NCBI GenBank assembly: GCA_024278345.1
Contig: JAJRTK010000397.1
Span: 1 to 9,309 of the forward strand
Direction: 5' to 3'
Origin: a bacterium
Lineage (GTDB): Bacteria; CSSED10-310; JAJRTK01
DNA length: 9,309 nucleotides
This document shows positions 4,316 through 9,309 of this stretch, one piece after another. Under the pieces are notes generated by a model. It was not told the DNA's origin. It did not search any database and saw only the letters and a list, made by a program, of their open reading frames with translations. The stretch's first letter is position 1, and each line of letters starts with the position of its first letter. The position numbers were made by a program, and so were the translations under genes.

Positions 4316-6235
4316 ATGACTGAACACGCTTCTGCAACTTCCCAAGAACAACAGCCACAATCCCATGAGTTTCAGGCCGAAGTACAACAACTTCTCGATA
4401 TCCTTGTCCACTCTCTCTATTCTCACAAGGAGATTTTTCTTCGAGAGCTCCTGTCCAACGCCGTGGATGCACTGGACAAAATGAGGTTTGAACAGCTCAC
4501 CCTCTCCAGCTCGGATGCCGCCAGCCTGCCTTTGGAGATTCGTATCGAGTGTGACGAGACCAAGGGCCGCCTCACCATGACTGATACTGGAGTGGGGATG
4601 ACCCGGGACGAGCTTGTGGAGAATATCGGCACCATCGCCCGTTCAGGTACTGCCCGCTACCTTTCCCACCTCTCCGACGAGGCCAAGCAGGATTCCAATT
4701 TCATCGGGCAGTTCGGCGTAGGATTTTACTCGGTCTTCATGGTAGCGGAGAAAGTGCGGATCATCACATGCTCGTACCGCCCGGACTCGGTTCCGGTCTT
4801 TTGGGAATCCGATGGCCGAGGCACCTACACAATCGCCCAACACGCTGATTCTCCAAGGGGCACAAGGATCGAGATCGACCTCAAGAAGGACGAAAACCGC
4901 TTCGCCAAGCCTCAGACCATTCGCGAGATCGTCCAGAAACATTCCAACTACGTTCCCTACCCCATCAAGTTGGCCGGAACGGCCATCAACGAGGTCAGCG
5001 CCCTTTGGCGGCGTCCAAAACAGGAAATCGCTCAGGAGGACTACCAGGAGTTCTACAAATTCATCACGGGGCGCACCGAAAACCCCCTGTCGATCCTCCA
5101 CTTTTCCCTGGATACCCCCTATCAGCTCCATGCGCTTCTCTATGTGCCGCCCCAGACTTTGGATTTCATGGGCCTCCCGGAAATGCGCCCAACCCTTAGC
5201 CTCTACTCCCGCCGCGTTCTCATCCAGCGCGACTGCAAGGAGCTCCTCCCGGACTATCTCCACTTCCTGGCGGGCTTGGTTGACGTGGAAGATCTTCCCC
5301 TCAACATTTCCAGAGAGGGCTTCCAGCGCGACCGGAACCTCCAGCTCCTACAGAAGCTCTTGACAAAGAAATTTTTGTCTCATCTCCAGGAGACCGCCAA
5401 AAAGGATTCCGACCTCTATTCCCGGTTCTACCGTATTTTTGGCCACACCTTGAAACAAGGTTTCCAAACCGATTTCGGAAATCGCGACAGAATTGTTCCC
5501 CTGCTCCGTTTCAATTCTTCAACCTGCGACGACGATCATCTCTCTGTTTCTCTGGCAAACTATGTGCAACGAATGAAGGACGACCAGAAGGAGATCTTCT
5601 ACCTCTGTGGCGCCCATCGAGAGAGCCTTCTCCGAAGCCCCCACCTGGAAGTCTTTCGCGCCAAAGAGATCGAGGTTCTCTTTCTCACCGATCCCATGGA
5701 CGACCTGGTCCTCACCACCCTGCAAACCTTCCAGGAGAAACCGTTTGCCGCCGCCGATCAGGCTGACCTTGGCCTCACTGTCCAGGAGAAAGACGAAGAA
5801 GAAGAGCCCCTTTCCTCTCGCGCCAGGCTGGATCGCCTCTTGGTCAAGATGGGAAAGCTCCTGGAATCCAGGGTGGTGGAAGTTCGCCAGTCGAAAAGGC
5901 TCAAAAAGAGCCCGTGCGCACTTGTGAATCCCCAAAACAGCGCTACGGCGGGGATCCAGAAACTCATGAGCCTGATGGACAAGGAATTCCAGCTTAGCCG
6001 CAGAATCCTGGAGATTAATGGCAAGCACCCCATTATCCGCGGGTTGGCACAAATCCACGACAAAGAGCCGAATGCCCCGGTCATCGAGCATGCCGCTCAT
6101 TTGCTTCTTGACAGTGCAATGCTCCAAGAGGACTTGCCAGTGGCACCTCGGGAGATGGCGCCCAGGCTGGAATCGGTCCTGGAAGAGTTGACCCGGCTTC
6201 GGGCGATTTCCGGAACAACACCGCCGACTCCTTGA
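4316..6235 (+). CDS. htpG: HtpG, bacterial Hsp90 chaperone
   Basis: This is a full-length 639-residue cytosolic ATP-dependent chaperone that remodels client proteins, in this family usually with DnaK. The N-terminal ATPase domain (about 16-225) shows FLRELLSNAVDALDK with catalytic E44 and N48, DTGVGM with D90 contacting adenine, the lid segment NIGTIARSGT, and GQFGVGFYS (131-139). The middle domain contains LPLNISRE with R333, the arginine expected to reach the ATP phosphate. The C-terminal part (about 515-639) is the dimerisation region, which includes RRILEINGKHPII. The last residues are TTPPTP; the eukaryotic MEEVD tail is absent, as expected for bacteria. The ATG at 4316 has GGAGG at 4304-4308, 7 bp upstream. 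No CIRCE-type heat-shock inverted repeat is seen in the 91-bp gap. The 146-bp gap downstream shows no clear terminator. Confidence 0.98.
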   Translation: MTEHASATSQEQQPQSHEFQAEVQQLLDILVHSLYSHKEIFLRELLSNAVDALDKMRFEQLTLSSSDAASLPLEIRIECDETKGRLTMTDTGVGMTRDELVENIGTIARSGTARYLSHLSDEAKQDSNFIGQFGVGFYSVFMVAEKVRIITCSYRPDSVPVFWESDGRGTYTIAQHADSPRGTRIEIDLKKDENRFAKPQTIREIVQKHSNYVPYPIKLAGTAINEVSALWRRPKQEIAQEDYQEFYKFITGRTENPLSILHFSLDTPYQLHALLYVPPQTLDFMGLPEMRPTLSLYSRRVLIQRDCKELLPDYLHFLAGLVDVEDLPLNISREGFQRDRNLQLLQKLLTKKFLSHLQETAKKDSDLYSRFYRIFGHTLKQGFQTDFGNRDRIVPLLRFNSSTCDDDHLSVSLANYVQRMKDDQKEIFYLCGAHRESLLRSPHLEVFRAKEIEVLFLTDPMDDLVLTTLQTFQEKPFAAADQADLGLTVQEKDEEEEPLSSRARLDRLLVKMGKLLESRVVEVRQSKRLKKSPCALVNPQNSATAGIQKLMSLMDKEFQLSRRILEINGKHPIIRGLAQIHDKEPNAPVIEHAAHLLLDSAMLQEDLPVAPREMAPRLESVLEELTRLRAISGTTPPTP

Positions 6236-6381: not shown

Positions 6382-9201
6382 CTACGTACGAGTGGCTCGG
6401 GCGTATTCCTTTTCGGCATTTCGGATCGCTTGCTGGAGTTCCTTGTTGGACGTGGCGAGTGCGATTTCCTGGAGGAAACCGGTTTCCATCACGAGCTTGG
6501 CAAACTTGGAGAGGATCTGGAGGTGTGCGTGGCGATCAGACGGTGGCCCGACGGTGGCGAGGCAGAGGTGTACGGGTTCGCCACTGGCCATCTGGTAGGG
6601 GATGGGTGTTTTCAGGGCGAAGAGCCCCGCGTGAGTGCCCTCGGTTGCCGCGATGGTGGCGTGGGGGATGCACACGCCTTGCCCGATTCCGGTGTTTTGC
6701 TGGTGTTCCCGATCCCAGAAGCCTTCGTTGATCTCTTTCTCCGGGAGGCCTAGGTTTTGGGCGAACACGCGGGATAGATAGGCGAAAAGCTCATCCTTTG
6801 TGGGAGTCTCAAGTCCGGTTTGGAGGGCGTTTGGCGCGAGCACATCCACTAGGCTGAGTTGGTCGAGCCCCCCCGGATCCGGTGCCAGGGCCTGGTGGGT
6901 CTGTTCTTGGGGTGTTCGAAGCTGGAGGACAGAACAGACGGCCCGGGCGGCGATGCTTTGTTTCGGGGAGCCGACGAGCATATTTCGCCAATGGCGCTCC
7001 GCTGCACCGGCCATGACCAGGAGGTCGTAGGCTACGCTCGCTTTGACGACGGCTTCCACGAGGTTGTCGGCTTTGACAATCGCACTTTGGGATGGCGCGT
7101 CGCAGAGCTGTTTGAATTGGTCGTGATAATCTAAGAGGTTTTGGATTTCCAGGGCTGGAATGTCGGGCGGCACGACTCCTATGAAGGTGAGGGTTGCCTG
7201 GCTACGGGCGGCGAGCCGGTGGGCTGTTTTCACGACCAGGGCATCGTGAGGGCCTGGTTCGGCGAGGACAAGGATTTTTTTGTAAACGCGGACTCCCGCG
7301 TCGCGAAAAACCGCCACGTCACAACCAAGGTTGTGGAGCAGCCACTCGAGGGGATTGCTCACAAGAACGGCTTGCCGTCTATAGCGGTGCTCCAGGATGA
7401 CCCATTGGCAGGAGAGGTTGCGGCTTTTTCTATAAAGTGCTTGCCGAGTATCCTTGGTGACAACCGTCTGAAAGTGAGCTTTGATTCCCAGGTCTTCAGC
7501 CATAGCCAAAGCTCTTCGCCGGATCGACTTGATCTTGTGCTCGACGAAAGTGGCGTCCGCTAGTTCGGTCTGTTCCGGGAGTTCTTGGAAATAGGCTACC
7601 TCCACGACGTCTAGTGGAGTCGGCGTCAGCGCGGAAGCGATCTCCATGAGGCTCTCAGGTGATCGTTCCTTGCCAATGAGTGCCACGAGCGTTGGTGCCG
7701 AGGTGGGGCCCGCTCCGCTGTCGAGGGGATCGGTTTCGCCCGGTGGGGGAGACTGCACCAGATCTTTCCGATGTCCCAGTTGTTGGAGCTGTCCTCTTCT
7801 GCGAACACGGGTCCGACCGTAGCAGACAAACCATAGAAGAGAGAGAAGTGTGAAGCCCAACACACTGGCAATTGCCATGGTTCCGAGCATTGCAAGGAGT
7901 GCGATTCCCCCGAGGATTCCGAAAATCTGCGTTGCTGGATAGAAGGGTGAGCGGAAAGTTGGTCGGTACCAGGAGGTCCCTGCTTCCCGGAAGATAATGA
8001 GGGCAAAGTTCTCGACGCAGAAAATGAAAATCTGGAAGCCGCTGGCCAGTTTGGCGACTTTTTCCACGTCTAGGAAGAGGATGACGAACCCCATAGTGAC
8101 AGAGGTCATGAGAATCGATCCGATGGGTGTCAGGAGTTCGGTGTGGAGGCGGCCTGTAAAGGGCGGGAGGAGTCCGTCTCTGCCCATGGCGAAGGGAAAT
8201 CTGGAAGAGGCAAGGAGGCCCGCATTGGCCATGGAGGAGAGAGCGAGGATCGCGATGGCGGCCACGATGAGGGAGACTTCATGTCCTCCGAGCCGTTCCG
8301 CCATCGTGGCGATGGGCGTGATGTCTCCAGAAAGATCGCCATAGGGAACCGTACCCACGAGCACGACGGATACAAGGGCGTAAAGAGTCGCCATGAAGCC
8401 CAGCGATAAGAGCATTCCCAGGGGCAGGTTCCTTGAGGGATTGTCGATCTCTTCCGCGATGGCGGCGATCTTCGTGACACCGGCATAGGAGACGAAAACG
8501 AAGCCCGCCGAGGCGAAAAGCCCGCTGACGCCGTGAGGAAAATGGGGCTCCAGAAGCTGAGGTTGGAACTGCGCGAGGCCGCTAAAACCCAGGGCAGTGA
8601 GTGCGACTAGGCAGATGCCCACCAGTACTGTTTGCAGGCGTCCAACTTTGGAAATGCCCTGGATATTGATGTACGTCACCAGCCCCAGAATGCCAATGGC
8701 CACAGGTTTGAGTGGAAGGTCCGACAGAAGTGCCAGGTAGCCGCCCAGGCCCATGAGTGCAAAGGAAGCCTTGAAAAGGATCGAGAGCCATGCTCCGATG
8801 CCAGTGACGGTTCCCGCCACGGGGCCAAGACTCCGTTCCACGAAGAGGTAGGTGCCTCCGGAGCCCGGCATGGCCGTGCCGAGCTCCGACTTGCTCAAGG
8901 TAGCCGGAAGCACGAGGATCGCTGAAATCACGTATGCCAACCAGAGGGATGGCCCGGTCATCGTGGCGGCAAGTCCCGGAAGCACGAAGATGCCTCCGCC
9001 GATCATGGCGCCAACGCTGATGGCAACGACGCTCACCAGTCCAAGTTCTCGTCCCAGCTTCTCCACGAAGGCCTCCCACAAATGATGAGGGTATTTTCCT
9101 TTATCAAAGGTCAATACTTTACCATACAAGGCATGTTTGCCCAGGAGCGTGTTGCGCATCACCGCCCAATCCCGAAAAACGGGTGCCTTGGCCTCGGTCA
9201 T
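6382..9201 (-). CDS. APC amino-acid permease fused to two USP-like domains and a PTS EIIA (PtsN-type) domain
   Basis: The product has 939 residues from ATG 9201. Residues about 52-462 form an APC-superfamily permease with some twelve membrane segments. The TM1 signature is GAMIGGGIFVLPG (64-76), and the TM6 region runs into AEEIDNPSRNLP (249-260), so amino-acid or cation-coupled uptake is likely; the substrate cannot be told. After a polar linker come two universal-stress-protein-like domains (about 502-635 and 637-763), both with degenerate nucleotide motifs. The C-terminal 785-930 is a PTS EIIA type 2 / EIIA-Ntr domain: NTGIGQGVCIPHA gives the phosphorylatable H847, and H893 in HAHLQILSKF is the second conserved histidine. 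A cytosolic phospho-relay input that gates transport is inferred. GTG 9066, with GGAGG 5 bp upstream, is a rival start that would remove 45 residues before TM1. TTG 9237 is possible but unsupported. The gene is convergent with htpG. Confidence 0.93.
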   Translation of the reverse strand: MTEAKAPVFRDWAVMRNTLLGKHALYGKVLTFDKGKYPHHLWEAFVEKLGRELGLVSVVAISVGAMIGGGIFVLPGLAATMTGPSLWLAYVISAILVLPATLSKSELGTAMPGSGGTYLFVERSLGPVAGTVTGIGAWLSILFKASFALMGLGGYLALLSDLPLKPVAIGILGLVTYINIQGISKVGRLQTVLVGICLVALTALGFSGLAQFQPQLLEPHFPHGVSGLFASAGFVFVSYAGVTKIAAIAEEIDNPSRNLPLGMLLSLGFMATLYALVSVVLVGTVPYGDLSGDITPIATMAERLGGHEVSLIVAAIAILALSSMANAGLLASSRFPFAMGRDGLLPPFTGRLHTELLTPIGSILMTSVTMGFVILFLDVEKVAKLASGFQIFIFCVENFALIIFREAGTSWYRPTFRSPFYPATQIFGILGGIALLAMLGTMAIASVLGFTLLSLLWFVCYGRTRVRRRGQLQQLGHRKDLVQSPPPGETDPLDSGAGPTSAPTLVALIGKERSPESLMEIASALTPTPLDVVEVAYFQELPEQTELADATFVEHKIKSIRRRALAMAEDLGIKAHFQTVVTKDTRQALYRKSRNLSCQWVILEHRYRRQAVLVSNPLEWLLHNLGCDVAVFRDAGVRVYKKILVLAEPGPHDALVVKTAHRLAARSQATLTFIGVVPPDIPALEIQNLLDYHDQFKQLCDAPSQSAIVKADNLVEAVVKASVAYDLLVMAGAAERHWRNMLVGSPKQSIAARAVCSVLQLRTPQEQTHQALAPDPGGLDQLSLVDVLAPNALQTGLETPTKDELFAYLSRVFAQNLGLPEKEINEGFWDREHQQNTGIGQGVCIPHATIAATEGTHAGLFALKTPIPYQMASGEPVHLCLATVGPPSDRHAHLQILSKFAKLVMETGFLQEIALATSNKELQQAIRNAEKEYARATRT
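9072..9076 (-). promoter_or_regulatory. Internal Shine-Dalgarno supporting an alternative transporter start at GTG 9066
   Basis: On the minus strand GGAGG is followed after 5 bp by GTG (9066-9064), reading M-EKLGRELGLVS just before TM1, a typical APC N-terminus. The sequence just upstream (about 9080-9140) is noticeably AT-richer than the surrounding gene, with TTGACC at 9116-9111 but no good -10. The ATG at 9201 has only GGGTGG about 8 bp upstream. Confidence 0.4.
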
Positions 9202-9247
9202 GGTACCGGCCACCCGAAAAAAGCGCGCAGCGCACAAAGATGTGGGT

Positions 9248-9293
9248 CCAGGGAGCTGGCTCCCTGGCGTGGGTCTGGGAGCGGCGCTCCCAG
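9248..9293. repeat. Two adjacent perfect hairpins upstream of the transporter gene
   Basis: Hairpin 1 has arms CCAGGGAG (9248-9255) and CTCCCTGG (9260-9267) with loop CTGG. Hairpin 2 has arms CTGGGAGC (9275-9282) and GCTCCCAG (9286-9293) with loop GGC. The two share the CTGGGAG/CTCCCAG theme and are 7 bp apart. They are followed by CGGAGG-TC-CGGAGG at the window end. This looks like an intergenic palindromic repeat unit cut by the window edge. No T-run follows either hairpin inside the window. Confidence 0.75.
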
Positions 9294-9309
9294 CGGAGGT
9301 CCGGAGGCA

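Follow-up and report, generated by a model that had tools for sequence, protein, structure and literature searches.

A bacterial APC-superfamily permease bearing a tandem USP module and a C-terminal EIIA-Ntr-like domain

The window analysed here, a stretch of 9,309 nucleotides that makes up the whole of one contig (C333) in a genome of 6.06 Mb, 550 contigs and 87.9% completeness, encodes a single polypeptide in which an APC permease is followed by two USP domains and a terminal EIIA domain (Table 1). APC-USP-USP proteins are already known; the addition here is the EIIA tail on them, a four-domain form that we found in 18 other genomes. By analogy with described systems, we favour, with a probability of roughly 60%, the reading that this protein is a PTS-controlled APC-superfamily amino-acid transporter whose H847 would be phosphorylated by EI and HPr.

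The frame runs through 939 codons without interruption or frameshift, and GC by codon position is coding-like and even across all its parts. Pfam matches above the cut-off are AA_permease_2 (residues 53-445, 9.7e-45), Usp (640-759, 1.3e-7) and PTS_EIIA_2 (789-928, 5.2e-21). These are the three domains that the initial annotation had read in one unbroken frame, with the EIIA similarity at 785-930, and the even coding signal together with the same four-domain order in 18 other genomes bears that reading out. Since the order is repeated in 18 further proteins, chance or assembly error is excluded as the source of the fusion.

Table 1. Features of the four-domain protein; positions are those of the window.
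Feature	Position	Strand	Basis or remark
APC-USP-USP-EIIA protein, 939 aa	6382..9201	-	start codon ATG 9199-9201, stop 6382-6384
APC transporter domain, residues 47-470	7792..9063	-	Pfam, PDB sequence search, model; K144 and K244 invariant
First USP domain, divergent, residues 500-633	7303..7704	-	relatives' matches and model
Second USP domain, residues 640-763	6913..7284	-	Pfam and model; degenerate ATP motif
EIIA-Ntr-type domain, residues 787-932	6406..6843	-	Pfam, weak NCBIfam, PtsN alignment, model
R831, invariant EIIA-domain residue	6709..6711	-	family alignment
H847, predicted phospho-acceptor	6661..6663	-	aligns with PtsN H73; invariant 19/19
H893, second active-site histidine	6523..6525	-	aligns with PtsN position 120; kept 18/19

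The AA_permease_2 profile spans the whole permease domain above the cut-off. The nearest solved structure is the arginine-bound bacterial CAT homologue (6f34/5oqt, 27% identity), and the modelled permease superimposes on 6f34 with a Z of 47.3 and an rmsd of 2.1 Å over 419 residues, which gives it the APC fold. Sequence identity is 27% to the CAT/ApcT amino-acid transporters versus 12-16% to SLC12 or KimA; no SLC12 family was among the Pfam matches of the 939-residue protein, and a PDB search with it gave no sequence match to KimA. Pfam likewise detected none of the EIIC or EIIB domains of sugar PTS permeases in the protein. A lysine in TM5 binds the proton in ApcT and GkApcT and marks the proton-coupled members, not the whole APC superfamily. 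This proton-site lysine is absent here, the aligned residue being C197, which is small or polar in relatives. K144 and K244 are invariant, K144 lying elsewhere than the TM5 site, and with the replacement by C197 the permease may or may not be proton-coupled.

Both USP domains proposed by the initial annotation could be located, the second through Pfam and the first through relatives and the structural model. In the 939-residue protein only the second passes the Pfam Usp cut-off. The site of the first, however, matches Pfam Usp in the four-domain relative L169, and a profile match links it to the first of two USP domains in a soluble USP-USP-EIIA protein (91.5%, E 8.6e-7). The full-length AlphaFold model (mean pLDDT 84, pTM 0.62) has two stretches, 504-633 and 642-762, in which strands and helices alternate. 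ATP-binding USPs carry the motif G-2x-G-9x-G(S/T), although non-ATP-binding USPs have also been noted, and some degenerate USPs still bind ATP (PMC3673472). Neither USP of the present protein keeps the motif; the second retains part of it, without conservation in the family. The missing motif limits the function of these domains, not their fold assignment, and from their sequences ATP sensing by either is unlikely. The best full-length Foldseek matches are the human SLC12 cotransporters NKCC, KCC and NCC (E about 1e-22), with alignments spanning the APC and both USP domains in which the orientation of the parts relative to each other differs or is unfixed (rmsd 16-20 Å). In KCC, the inner cytosolic lobe resembles USPs and the termini are phospho-regulated (PMC8280820). 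By analogy with this layout, the USP pair may act as a relay and dimerisation part, as the SLC12 likeness suggests.

The PTS_EIIA_2 match covers positions 4-143 of a 144-position profile, that is, the full domain. In an alignment with the E. coli PtsN structure 1a6j, H847 falls at position 73 and H893 at position 120, in agreement with the two conserved histidines first read from the window. In the alignment of the family, R831, T837, P846 and H847 are invariant in all 19 four-domain proteins, and H893 is kept in 18. The NCBIfam PtsN models TIGR01419 and NF008145 score 51.8 bits against a cut-off of 138.7 and 58.3 against 221, respectively; by its sequence the domain is EIIA-Ntr-like, not a PtsN ortholog. 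No separate match to an EIIA fold appeared among the structure matches listed, which are filled by permease matches, so that the EIIA identity rests on sequence. The model, with its pTM of 0.62, does not fix the placement of the EIIA domain relative to the membrane. In its input alignment the EIIA of the short APC-EIIA forms is unaligned to that of the window, and this part of the model therefore rests mainly on a single four-domain relative, L074.

How often the architecture occurs was followed through several sets of genomes. A first sample of 79 genomes gave a strong match in 12, all but one a permease plus EIIA without USP. Among 386 genomes, 59 had a strong APC match; most of these carry the shorter APC-EIIA form, and none besides the window's has the four-domain form. 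At the threshold used, no homologue appeared in the seven remaining genomes of the rare phylum to which the window belongs. A single-protein scan of genome contigs returned no relative, and an alignment-based scan of named genomes found L074, the four-domain protein of the NCBI 'Deltaproteobacteria bacterium' Zod_Metabat.76. Among 289 relatives of that genome, matches reaching into the EIIA domain were present in 18 besides L074's own; in 17 of them the complete four-domain protein could be read, and G691 showed it only in two pieces. The family alignment thus holds 19 full proteins, namely these 17, L074 and the window's, and the relatives in 18 other genomes, centred on this one MAG, are 39-44% identical to the window's protein. 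Identity to the latter is 44-52% in the permease, with 63 invariant positions across the 19 proteins, and 22-35% in the EIIA domain. APC permeases with an attached EIIA are not rare, a point that the initial annotation missed: the shorter APC-EIIA form prevails among the 59 genomes with a strong match, and the full four-domain order itself recurs in 18 other genomes.

The wider subfamily swaps its cytosolic tail, which may be USP-USP, EIIA, EIIA plus TrkA-C, or USP-USP-EIIA. In a non-random sample of 121 permease frames from the loci fetched, we classified 48 as APC-EIIA, 47 as APC-USP-USP, 19 as APC-EIIA-TrkA_C, 6 as APC only (a few of them cut by contig ends) and 1 besides the window's as APC-USP-USP-EIIA. 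The short APC-EIIA proteins (about 615-660 aa; Omnitrophota, Latescibacterota, Calditrichota and others) share the APC subfamily and the C-terminal EIIA, and the residues equivalent to H847 and R831 are invariant in 17 aligned examples; they differ in having a helical linker in place of the USP domains and permeases that fall in a clade of their own, a tree placing them with the window's being rejected (p 5e-61). The APC-EIIA-TrkA_C proteins (about 700-760 aa) also combine this APC subfamily with an EIIA. Their EIIA has diverged and some have lost the histidine motif (L113, 4947-7064, plus strand, where TrkA_C was confirmed by Pfam; L117; L035; and 16 others).

In the permease tree, the window's protein and L074 group with bacterial APC-USP-USP proteins (9 rows, support 100), apart from APC-EIIA, and the same test rejects the idea that a short APC-EIIA protein of this clade received a USP-USP insertion. 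The enlarged permease clade has 27 rows (support 100), of which 19 are four-domain proteins and 8 lack EIIA. The EIIA-less members (Bdellovibrionota, Campylobacterota, Bacteroidota and L177) nest among the four-domain ones, and a single permease clade of four-domain proteins is rejected (p 9e-9). No EIIA remnant was found beside the EIIA-less genes of this clade. The four-domain form is probably ancestral to this bacterial clade, with EIIA lost more than once, an ancestral state that depends on a root set by the outgroups sampled. In the EIIA tree, the EIIA domains of the four-domain proteins all fall into a single clade (support 98). Free trees separate them from those of the short fusions (98-99), although joint grouping is not rejected (p 0.54-0.85).

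The search for the phosphorelay proposed in the initial annotation found both EI and HPr in the window's genome, where a sigma-54 gene (rpoN) on contig C72 is directly followed by genes for an 89-aa HPr and a 581-aa EI. This EI has all three EI domains and no GAF match. The genome holds three other EIIA-type domains and gave no match to PTS_EIIC, the one EIIC family searched. Together with the rpoN-HPr-EI cluster, this makes its PTS look regulatory. Of 19 genomes that carry the four-domain form, 17 showed an EI N-domain, the window's own genome having EI besides; the domain was not found in G687 and G566, whose assemblies may be incomplete. In the same APC clade, EI accompanies only 2 of the 8 relatives without EIIA, namely L076 and L177, the latter's genome through a 598-aa PEP-utilizers_C frame (Fisher p 0.0018, uncorrected for kinship); an earlier mixed set gave 11 of 14 EIIA-bearing versus 3 of 13 EIIA-less genomes (p 0.007, kinship likewise uncorrected). 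As EI is equally common among non-carriers, being present in 18 of 20 non-carrier relatives of G396, the co-occurrence partly reflects phylum. L177 and L076, which lack EIIA despite the presence of EI, count against the favoured reading. A broader proposal, which we put forward tentatively and at clearly less than even odds, is an SLC12-like family of non-sugar transporters with a built-in phosphohistidine switch gating amino-acid flux, in which EIIA would have been gained in two independent events and, among members of the USP-bearing clade, would have disappeared along with the PTS. As a separate observation, an SLC4-type HCO3_cotransp protein in the window's genome (L158, 935-3205, plus strand; G000:C454), and also at L004, has an N-terminal EIIA-like domain that scores 23 bits, below the Pfam cut-off, and keeps the histidine (ILH for IPH). 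At L004 the ORF upstream of this gene (438-1034) is beta-carbonic anhydrase-like by eye.

Several described systems bear on the function. APC-USP-USP transporters have been described in archaea (PMC3673472) and are frequent in haloarchaea (PMC12159084), so the fusions that the initial annotation mentioned are indeed published. They have the same permease family and the same tandem USP position as the window's protein, whose APC domain shares a clade with bacterial members, but they stop after the second USP, whereas the window's protein adds EIIA. The initial annotation also named free EIIA-Ntr as a regulator of K+ transport proteins in E. coli; in that species, unphosphorylated PtsN binds and inhibits YcgO and phosphorylation weakens the binding (PMC11808508). 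PtsN resembles the present EIIA in having both histidines and regulates its transporter via the cytosolic part; unlike it, PtsN is free and acts in trans on a K+/H+ antiporter, while the window's EIIA is covalently attached to an APC permease. The SLC12 proteins also join an APC-fold permease to a two-lobed USP-like cytosolic domain and are phospho-regulated, but on Ser/Thr in their own cytosolic termini; they differ further in substrates, in identity (12-16%) and in having no EIIA. KimA, the K+/H+ symporter of B. subtilis, is another APC-superfamily member gated through a cytosolic C-terminal domain, which can lock the permease (PMC10284832); that domain is PPAT-like and responds to c-di-AMP, in place of USP-USP-EIIA, and the protein transports K+. 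A search of the open-access literature turned up no description of APC-EIIA or APC-USP-USP-EIIA proteins.

In the mechanism we propose, the 12-helix permease would move an amino acid, and the two USP domains, arranged like the SLC12 cytosolic domain, would likely provide a platform for dimerisation and relay. The phosphoryl group would pass from PEP through EI and HPr to H847 of the terminal EIIA, whose phosphorylation state would alter its docking on the cytosolic face of the USP domains or permease and hence the transport rate. By the PtsN-YcgO analogy, our guess is that unphosphorylated EIIA inhibits and that phosphorylation releases. Here we infer the phosphorylation, the substrate, the coupling and the sign of regulation. 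The control of uptake by PTS phosphorylation state, as initially suggested, gains partial support from the presence of EI and HPr, the lack of a PTS_EIIC match, the invariant phospho-site residues and the PtsN-transporter precedent; the accompanying tie to nutrient stress is a guess.

Most work on how the regulatory PTS (PTS-Ntr) governs nutrient transport concerns Proteobacteria, where free PtsN acts in trans. With EIIA covalently tied to its likely target, the effect of phosphorylation on transport becomes testable with one purified polypeptide. The family presents a transporter with an exchanged regulatory tail (USP-USP, EIIA, TrkA-C). It also offers a bacterial counterpart to the permease-plus-USP arrangement of SLC12, in which the phospho-input is another. 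If PTS control is correct, cells may throttle amino-acid transport directly by a PTS energy signal.

It is unlikely, in our estimate, that EIIA instead runs in reverse, with the transporter sensing its substrate and reporting to the PTS via phosphate as a membrane sensor (transceptor). The EIIA active site is intact, and the soluble USP-USP-EIIA protein, in having no permease, implies that the module need not be tied to transport; the 63 invariant permease positions are nevertheless as expected of a working transporter, and no signalling partner is encoded nearby. Somewhat less likely again is that the permease carries ions or osmolytes, as SLC12 and KimA do, and that USP-USP-EIIA regulates ion flux instead of amino-acid transport. 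The full-length model does align with NKCC, KCC and NCC including the cytosolic domain, a K+/H+ antiporter is a target of free PtsN (PMC11808508) and a Balneolaceae CPA2 antiporter has a similar tail, but permease identity is highest to CAT/ApcT and far lower to SLC12 or KimA. That the EIIA is a scaffold no longer phosphorylated appears improbable: dead EIIA domains without the IPH motif occur in several APC-EIIA-TrkA_C and Balneolaceae CPA2 fusions, yet R831, T837, P846 and H847 are invariant in the 19 four-domain proteins despite the low EIIA identity. That separate genes were fused by an error of assembly or annotation, for which the small contig in a 550-contig genome might speak, has a negligible chance given the even coding signal and the same order in 18 independent genomes.

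EIIA tails were also seen outside the APC subfamily. The Balneolaceae CPA2 Na+/H+ exchangers (L123, 5519-7996, minus strand; L108, 2735-4813, minus strand) have the order USP-(USP)-EIIA, and their genes adjoin an APC-USP-USP gene. The soluble USP-USP-EIIA protein (433 aa; L056, 1435-2733, minus strand, identical to L154, 9179-10477, minus strand; G111) has an intact IPH motif, and its gene lies downstream of an HD-domain gene with no permease nearby. No conserved neighbour genes were found around the four-domain genes, and context lends no support to a pathway. In the window, the transporter gene is convergent with a gene for HtpG (Hsp90; 4316-6235, plus strand). The contig start (1-350) holds a stretch encoding TTSPLGRASFPAPCSPEGATPARC... 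as two tandem copies, and two short GC-rich palindrome-like repeats, CCAGGGAGCCAGCTCCCTGG and CTGGGAGCGCCGCTCCCAG, lie at 9245-9295, just upstream of the transporter start codon.
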